From Pyrobaculum ferrireducens (GTDB lineage: Archaea; Thermoproteota; Thermoprotei; Thermoproteales; Thermoproteaceae), in assembly GCF_000234805.1 (NCBI RefSeq), contig NC_016645.1:2270391-2334390 (forward strand): DNA of 64,000 nt, given 5' to 3'. Positions 34,992-39,633 of the stretch are shown in pieces; position 1 is the first letter of the stretch; each line of letters begins with the position of its first letter. The translations under genes were made by a program, and so were the position numbers. The notes beneath the pieces are model-generated. The model searched no databases. It was not told where the DNA came from and worked only from the letters and a program-made list of their open reading frames with translations.

Positions 34992-35369
34992 TTATTCTCT
35001 ATACATCGACCTATCTCCAAAGAAGACCTCCAGCCGCCTGGGCTTTAGCTGAGATACTATGTAGTCAAACGCCGCCTTGGGGTCCGTGTGGTCGCCACAG
35101 GTATATACATCAACCGTCGCGAAGCCGTGCTCAGGCCACGTGTGTATAGATATGTGGCTCTCCGCCACCACTGCGAAGACCGTGAGCCCGCCGTTGGGCC
35201 CAAACCTGTACGAACCTATCGAAAGCAACATCGCATTAGCCACCTTCACAGCCTCTTTTACAATTGTAATCAGCGCCGCCTCGTCGCCAAGCACGTGAGA
35301 GTCGCATCCATATAGGTTGCCGTATACGTGCCTCCCCACTACTACCCTACCCCCCACGCCCCCCGCCAT
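34992..35369 (-). CDS. speD: S-adenosylmethionine decarboxylase proenzyme
   Basis: This 125-residue pyruvoyl enzyme makes decarboxylated AdoMet for polyamine synthesis. The self-processing site is E70-S71 in VAESHISIHTWPEHGFATVD, with the HxxxHTWPE signature intact. A conserved YTCGDHTDP segment follows. I chose the ATG at 35369 because TTTTTAAATTG is centred 25 bp upstream; an in-frame start at 35390 would overlap the TATA. Confidence 0.92.
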   Translation of the reverse strand: MAGGVGGRVVVGRHVYGNLYGCDSHVLGDEAALITIVKEAVKVANAMLLSIGSYRFGPNGGLTVFAVVAESHISIHTWPEHGFATVDVYTCGDHTDPKAAFDYIVSQLKPRRLEVFFGDRSMYRE

Positions 35370-35613
35370 GAAACTCCCCGTACCACGCAATTTAAAAATT
35401 TAACCCCCAAAAACCCTTACACTACACGTTAGTACCTGCATACACCATACTTGTAAAACCAAAAAGACATCCAATAAGAAAATAAAGAAGAGACACCGAC
35501 CCCCCTTGAGAAATATTTTTAGGCAACTGGCACCCTAACACTGATCACTTTAAAAACATAACTCGGTGAGAGGAACCGCGAGCGGAAAAACTGGAGAGGA
35601 TTAAAAAGGAGAT

Positions 35614-35709
35614 TTACCACTCTTCCTCTTCTTCCCACTCCTCTTCAAACTCCTCCCACAGCTCCTCTTCCTCCTCCCACTCCTCCTCTTCTCTGTACCA
35701 AATCGGCAT
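35614..35709 (-). CDS. Tiny acidic Trp/Glu-rich protein, 31 residues
   Basis: The ATG at 35709 opens a 31-codon frame beginning MPIWYREEEEWEEEEELWEE and ending in a second Glu run and a tryptophan. Nearly two thirds of residues are Glu and six are Trp. A clean TATA (TTTATAAATAG) lies about 25 bp upstream, so it has a promoter of its own. Trp falls every five to eight residues, which could put the aromatic residues along one face of a helix. I know no family; it could be a peptide that mimics nucleic acid or a short chaperone-like peptide, which is speculation. Confidence 0.5.
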   Translation of the reverse strand: MPIWYREEEEWEEEEELWEEFEEEWEEEEEW

Positions 35710-35726: not shown

Positions 35727-35742
35727 CTATTTATAAATTTAG
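35727..35742. promoter_or_regulatory. Shared palindromic TATA for divergent genes
   Basis: The sequence CTATTTATAAATTTAG is close to a palindrome. It is centred about 25 bp from the ATG of the tiny acidic gene (35709, minus) and about 23 bp from the GTG of the hypothetical gene (35757, plus). One box can therefore serve both directions, unlike the separate boxes at 741-795. Confidence 0.55.
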
Positions 35743-35756
35743 CCTTCATAGCGTCT

Positions 35757-36320
35757 GTGGCGAGGAGGGCCTATGTACAAGGCTTGGCCCAGCGGCGGGT
35801 AAAGTACCGATTCGACATAGACCCGCCGGCCCCCATCAGGCAGTGGGTCTCTGAAAACTTGGAGAGAGTGGGGCACTTGTTGGAGGGCGAGTGGGGCGGC
35901 GTCTTCTGCCCCTCGGCGCAGTTGCCGGGGCTGGGTCTTTTGCTGATCGAGTGGATGGGGGGCCACCTGGCGGCTGATGTGTCCATCTGCGCCCCGGTGT
36001 CGCACCCCGCGCCGCCGCAGTTTGTATTCGACGTGCCGGTTGGGCGCGTTGACATATGCGTAGAGCCAATCGCCCCCGTCGGAAGGGCAGTTGAATACGT
36101 AAAAATATGTACCCCCACCGTGAAGATGCTGGGCAGGGTCACGCTCCGGAGGAGCTTCGGGGTTGTGAAGTATAGGGGGTTGCTGTTCGCCACCGAGATT
36201 AGGTACGGCGCCGATCAAAGGGGCGGGGTCCGCCTGGAGATCGCCCGGTACAGCTGTACCCAACACGACACGTGGGACGCCGTGAGGAAGCTAAAAAAGA
36301 TCCTCAGCTCCAGGTATTGA
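35757..36320 (+). CDS. Hypothetical protein
   Basis: This is a 187-residue protein of unknown family starting at a GTG placed by the shared TATA. It is rich in beta strands, with Pro/Gly turns (FVFDVPVGRVDICVEPIAPV). It is followed with a one-base overlap by the DUF1922 gene, so the two form an operon. Cysteines are scattered and form no metal motif. Confidence 0.6.
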   Translation: MARRAYVQGLAQRRVKYRFDIDPPAPIRQWVSENLERVGHLLEGEWGGVFCPSAQLPGLGLLLIEWMGGHLAADVSICAPVSHPAPPQFVFDVPVGRVDICVEPIAPVGRAVEYVKICTPTVKMLGRVTLRRSFGVVKYRGLLFATEIRYGADQRGGVRLEIARYSCTQHDTWDAVRKLKKILSSRY

Positions 36321-36505: not shown

Positions 36506-36554
36506 GGCAGTTAGTGAATAACATTATATAATTTCCAAGACCTACACCTTGCCA

Positions 36555-39185
36555 ATGCATGTAGAGAAGTTCGCCTTGGGGGAGACTACATATAGGTACT
36601 TCCCGCTTAAGGCGCTTGAGAGGGAGGGATACGACGTGGCTCGCCTCCCCTACTCCATACGCGTCCTTCTAGAAAACGTCATGCGCAACCTCGACGGGCG
36701 CGACGTCACGAGAGAGCACTTGGAGAAGCTGGCCAGGTGGAATCCCAAGGCGCCTGAGGGGGAGGTGGCTATCAAGATCTCTAGGGTGGTTATGCAGGAC
36801 TACACCGGCGTCCCCGCCGTGGTTGACCTCGCCACTATGCGGGACATAGCTGTGAAGATGGGCAAAGACCCCTCTCTTGTGAATCCGCAGGTCCCGGTGG
36901 ACCTCATAATTGACCACTCTGTCCAGGTAGACTTCTGGGGATCGCACGAGGCGCTTAGGAGAAACCTCGAGCTCGAAATAACCCGCAACAGGGAGAGGTA
37001 CCGCTTCCTAAAGTGGGCCCAGCAGGCCTTTAGAAACCTCAGAATCTTCCCGCCGGGCACAGGAATAATACACCAGGTAAATCTAGAATACCTGGCTAGG
37101 GTAGTGATGACCGACGGCGACTTGGCGTATTTCGAGACGCTGGTCGGCATGGACAGCCACACCACGATGATCAACGGCCTCGGCGTCGTGGGGTGGGGAG
37201 TGGGCGGGGTAGAGGCCGAGGCGGCGATGCTGGGGGAGCCCATCACGATTAGAGTGCCGAGGGTGGTGGGGGTCCACCTATACGGCGAGCCGAGGCCCGG
37301 CGTCACGGCAACAGACATCGTGCTGGCCGTGACGGAGTACCTGCGTAAGGTGAATGTAGTAGACGCCTTCGTTGAGTTCTTCGGCGAGGGGGTGAGAAAG
37401 CTCTCCGTCCCCGACCGCGCCACTATAGCCAACATGGCGCCGGAGTACGGCTCCACCACCGGCCTGTTCCCCGTCGACGAAAACACCCTCTCGTATCTAA
37501 GGGCAACCGGCAGGCCGGAGGACCTCGTCGCGTTGGTTAAGAGGTACTACGAGCTCCAGGGCGTCTTCGGCGGAGTGGAGGGCGCAGAGTACAGCCAGGT
37601 GGTGGAATTCGACCTATCCACGGTCGAGAGGAACGTGGCGGGCCCCACCCTCCCGTGGCAGAGGAGGAGCCTCGCCGAGGCGCCGAAGAGCTTCCTCACG
37701 TTCCTCCAGGAGAGGAAGAAGAGGACGCAGAGGAGGGCTGTGGAGATTGAGATAGACGGTAGACGTGTCGAGTTCGGAGATGGAGACGTGGCCATCGCCG
37801 CGATAACCAGCTGCACCAACACCAGCAACCCGTACCTCCTAGCCGCCGCGGGTCTCGTGGCCAAGAAGGCCTACGAACTCGGCATAAGGCCGCCCCCATA
37901 CGTGAAGACCAGCTTCGCGCCGGGCTCCAGAGCCGTTGCGGAGCTGTTGGAGAGAAGCGGGTTGCAGAAATACCTAGATGAGCTGGGCTTCCAAGTCGTC
38001 GCCTTTGGGTGTACCACGTGTATTGGGAACTCCGGCCCCCTGCCCGAGCCCGTGGCCAAGGCGATTAAGGAGCACGACATACTCGCCGCGGCGGTGCTGT
38101 CGGGCAATAGGAACTTCGAGGCAAGGGTGCATCCAGACATCCGCGCCGCGTATCTCGCCTCGCCCCCGCTGGTGGTGGCCTACGCCATTGCGGGCACGGT
38201 GTTGAAAAACCTGGAGTCGGAGCCGCTCGCCTACGGCCAGGGGGGCAGGCCCGTGTATTTAAGAGATCTCTGGCCCACCCCCGAGGAGGTGAATAGGGTG
38301 GTGGAGGAGTGGCTAGACCCCAAGATGTATGTCGAAAAGTACAGCAAAGCTGGCGAGCTTGTTCCAGAGTGGCGGGCTCTGGAGGCGCCAAGCGGCCTCC
38401 TCTACAAGTGGGACCCGGGCGACACCTATATACAGCCGTCTCCCCTCTTTGAGGGCGAGGTAAAGGTCGGTGACATAAAGGGGGCGAGGCCGCTGTTGGT
38501 GCTTGGCGACAGCATTACGACGGACCACATATCGCCGGCGGGCAACATAACGACTGACAACCCCGCTGGGCAGTACCTCATGTCCCTCGGCGTTAAGCCC
38601 TCGGAGTTTAACACCTTCGGCGCCAGGAGGGGCAACTGGCATGTGATGGTACGGGGCACCTTCTCCAGCAAAGGCTACAAGAACAAAATCGGAAACCTAG
38701 ACGGCGGCCTCACCATCAAGTTCCCAGAGGGGAAGGTCATGACCGTCTTCGAGGCGGCGGAGGCCTACAAAAAAGAGGGGACGCCCCTAGTCGTCCTGGC
38801 TGGGAAAAACTACGGCGCGGGGTCGAGCAGAGACTGGGCCGCCAAGGGCCCCAAGCTACTGGGCGTCAAGGCTGTGATAGCCGAGAGCTTCGAGAGAATC
38901 CACAGATCCAACCTAACCATGGTCGGCATAGTACCCATACAGCTACCCCAAGGCGTAACTGTCGACAGCCTCGGCCTAGAGGGCTCAGAGACGATAGACG
39001 TGGTGGGGCTCTCCGAAGGCCTGGCGCCCGGCAAGGAAGTCACGTTGAGAATCCACCGGAGGGACGGCCGCGTAGACGAGGTAAAGGCCAAGCTGGCGGT
39101 GTACACCTGGGCAGAGGTGGAGTATATCAAACACGGCGGCATACTGCCCTACGTCCTTCAGAAGTTGATGCAGAAAAGTAAATAG
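36555..39185 (+). CDS. acnA: Aconitate hydratase, AcnA type
   Basis: This 876-residue enzyme of the citric acid cycle interconverts citrate and isocitrate. Cysteines C420 (ITSCTNTSN), C486 and C489 (GCTTCIGNSG) hold the [4Fe-4S] cluster. The C-terminal swivelling domain is intact (GDSITTDHISPAGNI, KNYGAGSSRDWAAKGP). I chose the ATG at 36555, 26 bp after a TATA element (TTATATAATTT); a TTG two codons earlier is possible. In this group the cycle may run oxidatively or reductively. The last 60 bp are duplicated downstream at 39546-39594. Confidence 0.94.
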   Translation: MHVEKFALGETTYRYFPLKALEREGYDVARLPYSIRVLLENVMRNLDGRDVTREHLEKLARWNPKAPEGEVAIKISRVVMQDYTGVPAVVDLATMRDIAVKMGKDPSLVNPQVPVDLIIDHSVQVDFWGSHEALRRNLELEITRNRERYRFLKWAQQAFRNLRIFPPGTGIIHQVNLEYLARVVMTDGDLAYFETLVGMDSHTTMINGLGVVGWGVGGVEAEAAMLGEPITIRVPRVVGVHLYGEPRPGVTATDIVLAVTEYLRKVNVVDAFVEFFGEGVRKLSVPDRATIANMAPEYGSTTGLFPVDENTLSYLRATGRPEDLVALVKRYYELQGVFGGVEGAEYSQVVEFDLSTVERNVAGPTLPWQRRSLAEAPKSFLTFLQERKKRTQRRAVEIEIDGRRVEFGDGDVAIAAITSCTNTSNPYLLAAAGLVAKKAYELGIRPPPYVKTSFAPGSRAVAELLERSGLQKYLDELGFQVVAFGCTTCIGNSGPLPEPVAKAIKEHDILAAAVLSGNRNFEARVHPDIRAAYLASPPLVVAYAIAGTVLKNLESEPLAYGQGGRPVYLRDLWPTPEEVNRVVEEWLDPKMYVEKYSKAGELVPEWRALEAPSGLLYKWDPGDTYIQPSPLFEGEVKVGDIKGARPLLVLGDSITTDHISPAGNITTDNPAGQYLMSLGVKPSEFNTFGARRGNWHVMVRGTFSSKGYKNKIGNLDGGLTIKFPEGKVMTVFEAAEAYKKEGTPLVVLAGKNYGAGSSRDWAAKGPKLLGVKAVIAESFERIHRSNLTMVGIVPIQLPQGVTVDSLGLEGSETIDVVGLSEGLAPGKEVTLRIHRRDGRVDEVKAKLAVYTWAEVEYIKHGGILPYVLQKLMQKSK
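39116..39164 (+). repeat. Direct repeat, copy 1 (3' end of acnA)
   Basis: This 49-bp sequence encodes VEYIKHGGILPYVLQK at the end of aconitase. It is identical to 39546-39594 except for one base (TATATC against TACATC). The two copies lie exactly 430 bp apart and flank the small membrane-protein gene. Confidence 0.85.
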
Positions 39186-39211: not shown

Positions 39212-39544
39212 ATGCGCAGGGTACTCGTAGCCCTCCTTCTGTTGCTGGCGGTGGGCTACGTCGGCATAAACTTCGTTGGACTGCCTCCACTACTCGTAGC
39301 CGAAAACTTAGCACTAGCCGCGACGTACGCCGCACTGGGCGCGGCCCTCCTCCGTGGAGGAGGTAGAAAAATCCTCGGCGTTGTTCTTCTGGTCGCCTCG
39401 TTTAACGCCGGGAGAGTCTCCAGATCCATATGGTCGCCTGTCACGGGCTTCGGCGGCCTCCTCGCTGTGGAGCACATCCCGCTCCTCCTCTACCTAGTGG
39501 CCGTCTCTATACTCGCCCTAATACCCCTCGTCAGAGGGGGGTAA
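39212..39544 (+). CDS. Small polytopic membrane protein
   Basis: This 110-residue protein has three or four membrane helices (residues 4-22, 27-45, 55-68 and 85-106) and a basic loop (RGGGRKILG). A TATA element (AGTTTTAAACC) lies about 25 bp before the ATG. It is the only gene between the two copies of the 49-bp acnA repeat. Its TAA overlaps an ATG (TAATG) that opens the second copy. Confidence 0.65.
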   Translation: MRRVLVALLLLLAVGYVGINFVGLPPLLVAENLALAATYAALGAALLRGGGRKILGVVLLVASFNAGRVSRSIWSPVTGFGGLLAVEHIPLLLYLVAVSILALIPLVRGG

Positions 39545-39633
39545 TGGTGGAGTACATCAAACACGGCGGCATACTGCCCTACGTCCTTCAGAAGCTATCG
39601 CAGATCTCGACGCGCCGTCTCTCCGGCATGTGA
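39544..39633 (+). pseudogene. Duplicated aconitase 3' fragment
   Basis: A 29-codon frame opens at an ATG overlapping the previous stop and reads MVEYIKHGGILPYVLQKLSQ before drifting from the acnA sequence. The 49-bp identity starts at 39546. The original frame is kept, but a 29-residue peptide is unlikely to fold. It looks like the footprint of a duplication or of site-specific integration into the acnA 3' end. Confidence 0.7.

Follow-up and report, generated by a model that had tools for sequence, protein, structure and literature searches.

A family of short glutamate- and tryptophan-rich genes in Thermoproteota, recurrently linked to the gene of the ribosome recycling protein ABCE1

DSS1/Sem1 is a small acidic protein with spaced aromatic residues, capable of binding to basic surfaces and of mimicking nucleic acid. 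The amino-group carrier protein LysW/ArgW is another small acidic protein, in this case archaeal. A third point of comparison is eIF3j, a eukaryotic protein named HCR1 in yeast; archaea are not known to possess eIF3. Ribosome recycling by ABCE1 is common to archaea and eukaryotes, and the available excerpts of PMC7196836 treat the release of ABCE1 from the small subunit as an open question, outside factors being suggested as the trigger of release from the archaeal 30S. Yeast HCR1 and RLI1 bind via the ABC2 domain and hcr1 deletion is suppressed by extra RLI1 (both from excerpts of PMC3836723); the link between HCR1/eIF3j and ABCE1 is repeated in a passage of the review PMC12794334. In the parts of PMC2824034 available, the acidic HCR1 motif that was mutated holds W37, D38 and E40-43, and Trp52 of human eIF3j is placed in a pocket of eIF3b. 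The archaeal peptide described below is not a subject of these texts.

The window (the whole 64,000-nucleotide stretch of Pyrobaculum ferrireducens DNA that was analysed) contains at positions 35614-35709 a gene for a glutamate- and tryptophan-rich (EW) peptide of 31 amino acids, MPIWYREEEEWEEEEELWEEFEEEWEEEEEW. A preliminary description of this DNA had proposed a 31-residue gene at this place and left its strand unstated. The ORF reading of the window confirmed the gene and assigned it to the minus strand, with the ATG at 35709-35707 and the stop codon TAA at 35616-35614. The peptide, which had been described as nearly all glutamate with a tryptophan every five to eight residues, consists of 19 Glu and 5 Trp among its 31 residues, the tryptophans being located at residues 4, 11, 18, 25 and 31 (spacing 7, 7, 7 and 6, in the range described). 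The ORF is above chance: 25 consecutive residues including 17 or more Glu and 3 or more Trp occurred once in the real window and in none of 40 first-order Markov shuffles.

A TATA box, TTTATAAA, is located at 35730-35737 on the minus strand, 24 nt before the ATG, in agreement with the earlier claim that the gene has its own promoter, with a TATA element supporting transcription from just before the start codon. Because of this distance the transcript is probably leaderless. The TATA box reads alike toward the divergent plus-strand gene starting at 35757, therefore it may be shared by the two genes. Directly after the EW stop codon there is a run of five T residues on the minus strand (35603-35607), a putative terminator-like element; T runs follow the stop codon in many relatives, too. 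The divergent gene (35757-36320, plus strand) encodes a protein of 187 amino acids without a match in Pfam or NCBIfam. It is conserved beside EW in Pyrobaculum and Thermoproteus, and was found in this position in 12 of the 100 loci whose neighbours were clustered, all of them in family f1; its cluster was separate from that of the THUMP protein described below. The next gene downstream of EW, at a distance of 224 nt, encodes S-adenosylmethionine decarboxylase (34992-35390, minus strand) and was likewise found in 12 of the 100 clustered loci, all in f1. Both neighbours are taken as context only. Farther away, a small ORF (39430-39633), which follows a gene for an aconitase-like protein of 878 amino acids (36549-39185), contains VEYIKHGGILPYVLQKL. 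This sequence is nearly identical to the C-terminus of the aconitase-like protein, and constitutes a duplicated gene end.

Of 41 related genomes, 37 gave DNA matches to the EW locus. Each of the 31 loci that were read contained the EW ORF, L001 and L002 being one and the same place. The last 24 codons were aligned from 15 genomes of the genera Pyrobaculum and Thermoproteus. Almost all differences were synonymous: GAA and GAG, TTT and TTC, as well as CTG, CTT and CTC were freely exchanged, and the stop codon was either TAA or TAG. The amino acid changes consisted of two E to D replacements, apart from two genomes in which a shortening by one residue shifts the alignment. All 15 genomes had the same final TGG. 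All 15 loci had a TATA-like element 23-24 nt upstream of the start, the distance in L009 being counted from the first of two ATG codons (29 nt from the second). Neither the frame nor the tryptophan spacing, on whose persistence in close relatives the preliminary description had made its case depend, was lost: frame, start, stop and aromatic positions were kept, with the one-residue shortenings in two genomes. Since the variation falls at synonymous positions, selection acts on the protein and not on the DNA. Judged from this substitution pattern, the ORF is a real protein gene selected at the protein level, and we infer that it is translated. The earlier remark that the gene was too short for normal annotation was in place, with the 31-residue protein gene now supported as genuine.

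The same alignment bears on the possibility that the peptide just binds metal or other cations, or that the locus is a structural or DNA element without protein function. Many carboxylates and a purine-rich strand would suit these explanations, but the variation is synonymous, so selection is on the protein; moreover, the peptide has no set of Cys or His residues, and aromatic residues are not needed for binding metal. An RNA or DNA element without a protein role is ruled out by the synonymous variation in the 15 aligned genomes, and metal binding, which had been suggested earlier, found no support in a peptide lacking a Cys or His set. Taken together, these explanations are most improbable.

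The distribution of the gene was determined with a DNA pattern corresponding to W-E-E, a gap of up to 24 bases, and E-E-W-E-E, which was written with all Glu codons and controlled by the reversed pattern. It was present in 182 of 398 Thermoproteota genomes, representing 86 of 163 genera, whereas the reversed pattern gave zero in every row among the matches listed. A search of the phylum with a single protein sequence yielded matches in just 14 of the 398 genomes; diverged members were probably masked by the correction for low complexity. We read 142 EW loci from 141 genomes, chosen to spread over the families and to include the best matches; they do not cover all 182 positive genomes. Most of them contained an ORF of 20-60 residues composed of glutamate and spaced aromatics. 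Among 123 distinct peptides (the loci L098, L099, L106, L107 and L117, where the motif is a tail, were excluded here and kept in the ABCE1 count) the median length was 29 and the range 21-76 residues, the choice of start being partly uncertain. The peptides contained 64% Glu and 13.6% Trp, approximately four Trp each. Their acidic core had no Lys or Arg, and the mean net charge was about -21. The C-terminal residue was W (89 peptides), F (19), L (7), E (5), V (2) or P (1). Thus 108 of the 123 peptides ended in W or F, and the window peptide ends in W. It also shares the Glu/Asp core without K or R, in which at least two aromatics are placed, mostly at intervals of 3-8 residues. As read from these sequences, the family is defined by a polyglutamate chain with about 3-6 spaced aromatics, nearly always terminated by Trp or Phe. 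An amphipathic helix as a general rule was ruled out, the Trp-Trp spacing ranging widely with a peak at 5.

As for expression signals, a TATA-like element preceded 15 of 17 members in f1 (42/137 over all families), and a Shine-Dalgarno-like motif preceded 28 of 29 members in f14 (55/137 over all families). Divergent versions contain Asp in f31, Phe as the sole aromatic in f7, and Asp with Pro in f17. The Asp variants of f31 lie about 50 nt before ABCE1, and three of the five were missed by the strict pattern. A pattern relaxed to D/E was absent from 22 of 27 genomes of the groups negative with the strict pattern; two of the 22, G044 and G053, have a divergent EW ORF before ABCE1. In viral contigs the EW pattern matched at least 120 stretches, many of them arrays of repeated matches among the matches listed, and the pattern was treated as unspecific outside archaea. 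A stricter core pattern matched no stretch in the viral contigs. Acidic low-complexity ORFs may have separate origins, and the unlinked EW members may be non-homologous.

When the neighbours of 100 EW loci were clustered, the largest group was a cluster of 4Fe-4S twin-ATPases comprising 48 loci. This cluster was perhaps inflated by other ABC proteins, therefore ABCE1 was recounted by tblastn with identity limits. The reference for the count, identical to the cluster representative, is RLI/ABCE1 (NCBIfam NF009945, 871 bits with a cut-off of 469). ABCE1 was found in the same short locus in 69 of the 142 EW loci. After exclusion of six loci reached through ABCE1 (L164, L166, L172, L180, L184 and L187) 136 loci remained, of which 63 contained ABCE1, distributed over 26 of the 45 families and 41 of the 81 genera; with the six loci included, the families with linked members number 28 of 47. 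In the 63 linked loci ABCE1 was located downstream on the same strand 56 times, was divergent six times, and had another arrangement once, the distance to EW in linked loci being 53-1114 nt. The mean length of the loci was 3.8 kb and the genomes are about 1-3 Mb, thus by chance a given gene would be found in well under 1% of the loci. The EW family and its recurrent linkage to ABCE1 are solid. ABCE1 was absent from the flank read in 73 of the 136 loci, the window included. ABCE1 itself was present in all 32 genomes searched, which, together with the genomes lacking even the D/E-relaxed pattern, indicates that ABCE1 can work without EW and that the peptide is not universal.

Genes for THUMP and Cgi121 proteins and for eS17 recur near EW loci, the THUMP label being based on neighbour clustering and on a single protein, that of L110, which matched in Pfam. 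A gene for a TFS-like zinc ribbon (Pfam Zn_ribbon_RPB9, PF02150) is often found between EW and ABCE1. Several layouts exist within the order to which the window belongs: the full row THUMP / EW / TFS / ABCE1 in L028, EW / TFS / ABCE1 in L029 and L030, and those given below for L017 to L027. If EW acted with the TFS-like protein on RNA polymerase, ABCE1 would be a passenger. The TFS-like gene adjoins EW in many ABCE1-linked loci, and in two loci with the order THUMP / EW / TFS (L017 and L027) it is beside EW with no ABCE1 in the flank read, in favour of this explanation. However, in f14, f31, f50, f28, f38 and other families EW adjoins ABCE1 with no TFS found, which makes ABCE1 the more constant partner, and the NCBIfam score for TFS was under the cut-off. 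A role in transcription is therefore considered improbable.

The position of EW before ABCE1 is also compatible with a leader peptide, functionless in itself, whose Glu-rich, Trp-spaced codons would sense the state of the ribosome during translation and control ABCE1 in cis. Acidic nascent chains destabilise ribosomes, and 56 of the 63 linked members are upstream of ABCE1 on the same strand, some of them approximately 50-90 nt away. The other layouts do not conform to such a scheme. In all nine loci of the genus Vulcanisaeta (L018-L026, THUMP / EW) both nearest genes are on the opposite strand, and in f15 EW is divergent from TFS-ABCE1. In the window EW stands alone with its own TATA box and is not upstream of ABCE1 on the same strand: it maps to C1:2306007-2306099 and ABCE1 to C1:520129, about 0.7 Mb apart, adjacency to ABCE1 being common among members and not required of them. 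Compared with the other layouts, the window appears as an eroded state, the EW gene having moved away from ABCE1. That EW is intact when detached from ABCE1 argues strongly against a leader peptide and in favour of a trans-acting product, and makes control in cis very improbable. Directly after EW, the opposite strand of the f15 loci that were read encodes a protein of some 160-176 amino acids (920-1447 in L149 and equivalents); the L149 protein had no match in Pfam or NCBIfam.

EW-like sequences were also observed as tails of other proteins. Genome G004 of the genus Pyrobaculum encodes a protein of about 106-125 amino acids three times (L325:813-1133, L326:947-1297, and L332), each time with an EW tail containing ELWEEFEEEW, directly after which the third copy ends. 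This protein is limited to one of the 41 genomes, where another gene has apparently taken up the EW module. A LysW-like zinc ribbon with a C-terminal EW tail was found in f36 (L106, L107; L106 scored 37 bits with NF041070, under the cut-off of 75), and a CxxC zinc-finger protein with such a tail in f52 and f63 (L098, L099). Two adjoining proteins of 169 and 209 amino acids in one genome (L318:799-1308 and 1488-2117) both have acidic tails containing Trp or Tyr. None of the EW-tailed proteins, the L318 pair included, could be assigned to a family in Pfam or PHROGs. The occurrence on unrelated proteins shows that the module is open to reuse or to renewed origin.

A general acidic chaperone or nucleic-acid mimic, the latter already suggested in the preliminary description, shielding basic proteins such as ribosomal, nucleoid or RNA-binding factors and not ABCE1 in particular, would be in line with a mean net charge of about -21, a core free of basic residues and the translation-related genes (THUMP, Cgi121, eS17) nearby in some loci. 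It would also accommodate the members of many families that lie away from ABCE1 and the tails on other proteins (L106/L107, L098/L099, L325/L326/L332). It leaves unexplained, however, why ABCE1 is found beside EW again and again, across 26 of the 45 families, and the fixed aromatics together with the aromatic residue at the C-terminus point to docking at a specific site. We regard this explanation as unlikely but serious.

The reading we tentatively prefer, as a real possibility, is that the EW peptide works with ABCE1 in ribosome recycling. A microprotein acting in trans would be the partner of ABCE1 or of the post-splitting 30S-ABCE1 complex. The acidic chain would settle on a basic surface of either of these and the aromatics would fill shallow hydrophobic pockets. 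Such docking could modulate the ATPase cycle, subunit splitting, or the release of ABCE1 from the 30S. Binding to a basic partner, proposed in the preliminary description, fits the composition of the peptide and the linkage to ABCE1. Physical binding, the direction of the effect and the same job for the relocated Pyrobaculum copy are assumed here by extension, and operon neighbours need not bind one another. In an AlphaFold2 model of a natural cis read-through (L102, EW-linker-ABCE1), obtained with the monomer network and a shallow alignment of 13 rows, ABCE1 was well modelled (pTM 0.78), and EW was undocked and without secondary structure, pLDDT values over residues 1-40 being 36, 30, 27 and 25. 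Owing to the network and alignment used this is weak evidence, but the model lends no support to binding. The L102 peptide alone was predicted as a helix (pLDDT 90). This model was distrusted, the same stretch being disordered (pLDDT 25-36) in the longer construct.

The window peptide had no match in Pfam (to E 10), NCBIfam or the PDB sequences (to E 10). Three EW core strings were searched in the open-licence full text of PubMed Central, and the single match was a kiwifruit transcription factor; searches of this collection, in which subscription journals are mostly uncovered, gave nothing, among the papers listed, on such a peptide in connection with ABCE1, archaea or small or acidic proteins. 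These searches yielded no counterpart among known families, structures or printed sequences; the acidic-aromatic binding peptide as a working principle is already known. A conserved family that a strict pattern places in 182 of 398 Thermoproteota genomes and that the libraries searched do not recognise would add a new part to a core process, and a synthetic peptide of 31 residues is an unusually cheap reagent for its study.

Among the described systems LysW/ArgW differs by its zinc ribbon: the window peptide has neither such a ribbon nor any Cys, and corresponds to no NCBIfam family. DSS1/Sem1 is also distinct, since it has about 70 amino acids, forms a defined helix at its C-terminus and interacts with other partners. 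No sequence relation was found between the window peptide and eIF3j or any solved chain (Pfam and PDB, both to E 10). eIF3j is larger and eukaryotic, and its N-terminal acidic motif (NTA) binds the RRM of eIF3b, in contrast to EW, which is encoded by archaeal genes of 20-60 codons, has a Trp every 4-8 residues, and has no eIF3j-like domain beside it. The likeness is in two features. The NTA, as far as excerpts of PMC2824034 and PMC3836723 describe it, is a short acidic stretch centred on Trp (W37, D38 and E40-43 in HCR1, Trp52 in the human protein), and the window peptide is a short acidic stretch of this kind. Furthermore, both are connected to ABCE1/RLI1, HCR1 physically and functionally according to these sources and EW by gene linkage. 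By this analogy EW could be the archaeal counterpart of the acidic Trp arm of eIF3j, a stand-alone cofactor of ABCE1 release or splitting across much of Thermoproteota, possibly ancestral to the eukaryotic arm or convergent with it, and the same module as a C-terminal tail would recruit other proteins to the recycling machinery. We consider this extended proposal rather doubtful; if the mechanism were true, a regulator resembling eIF3j would exist in archaea.
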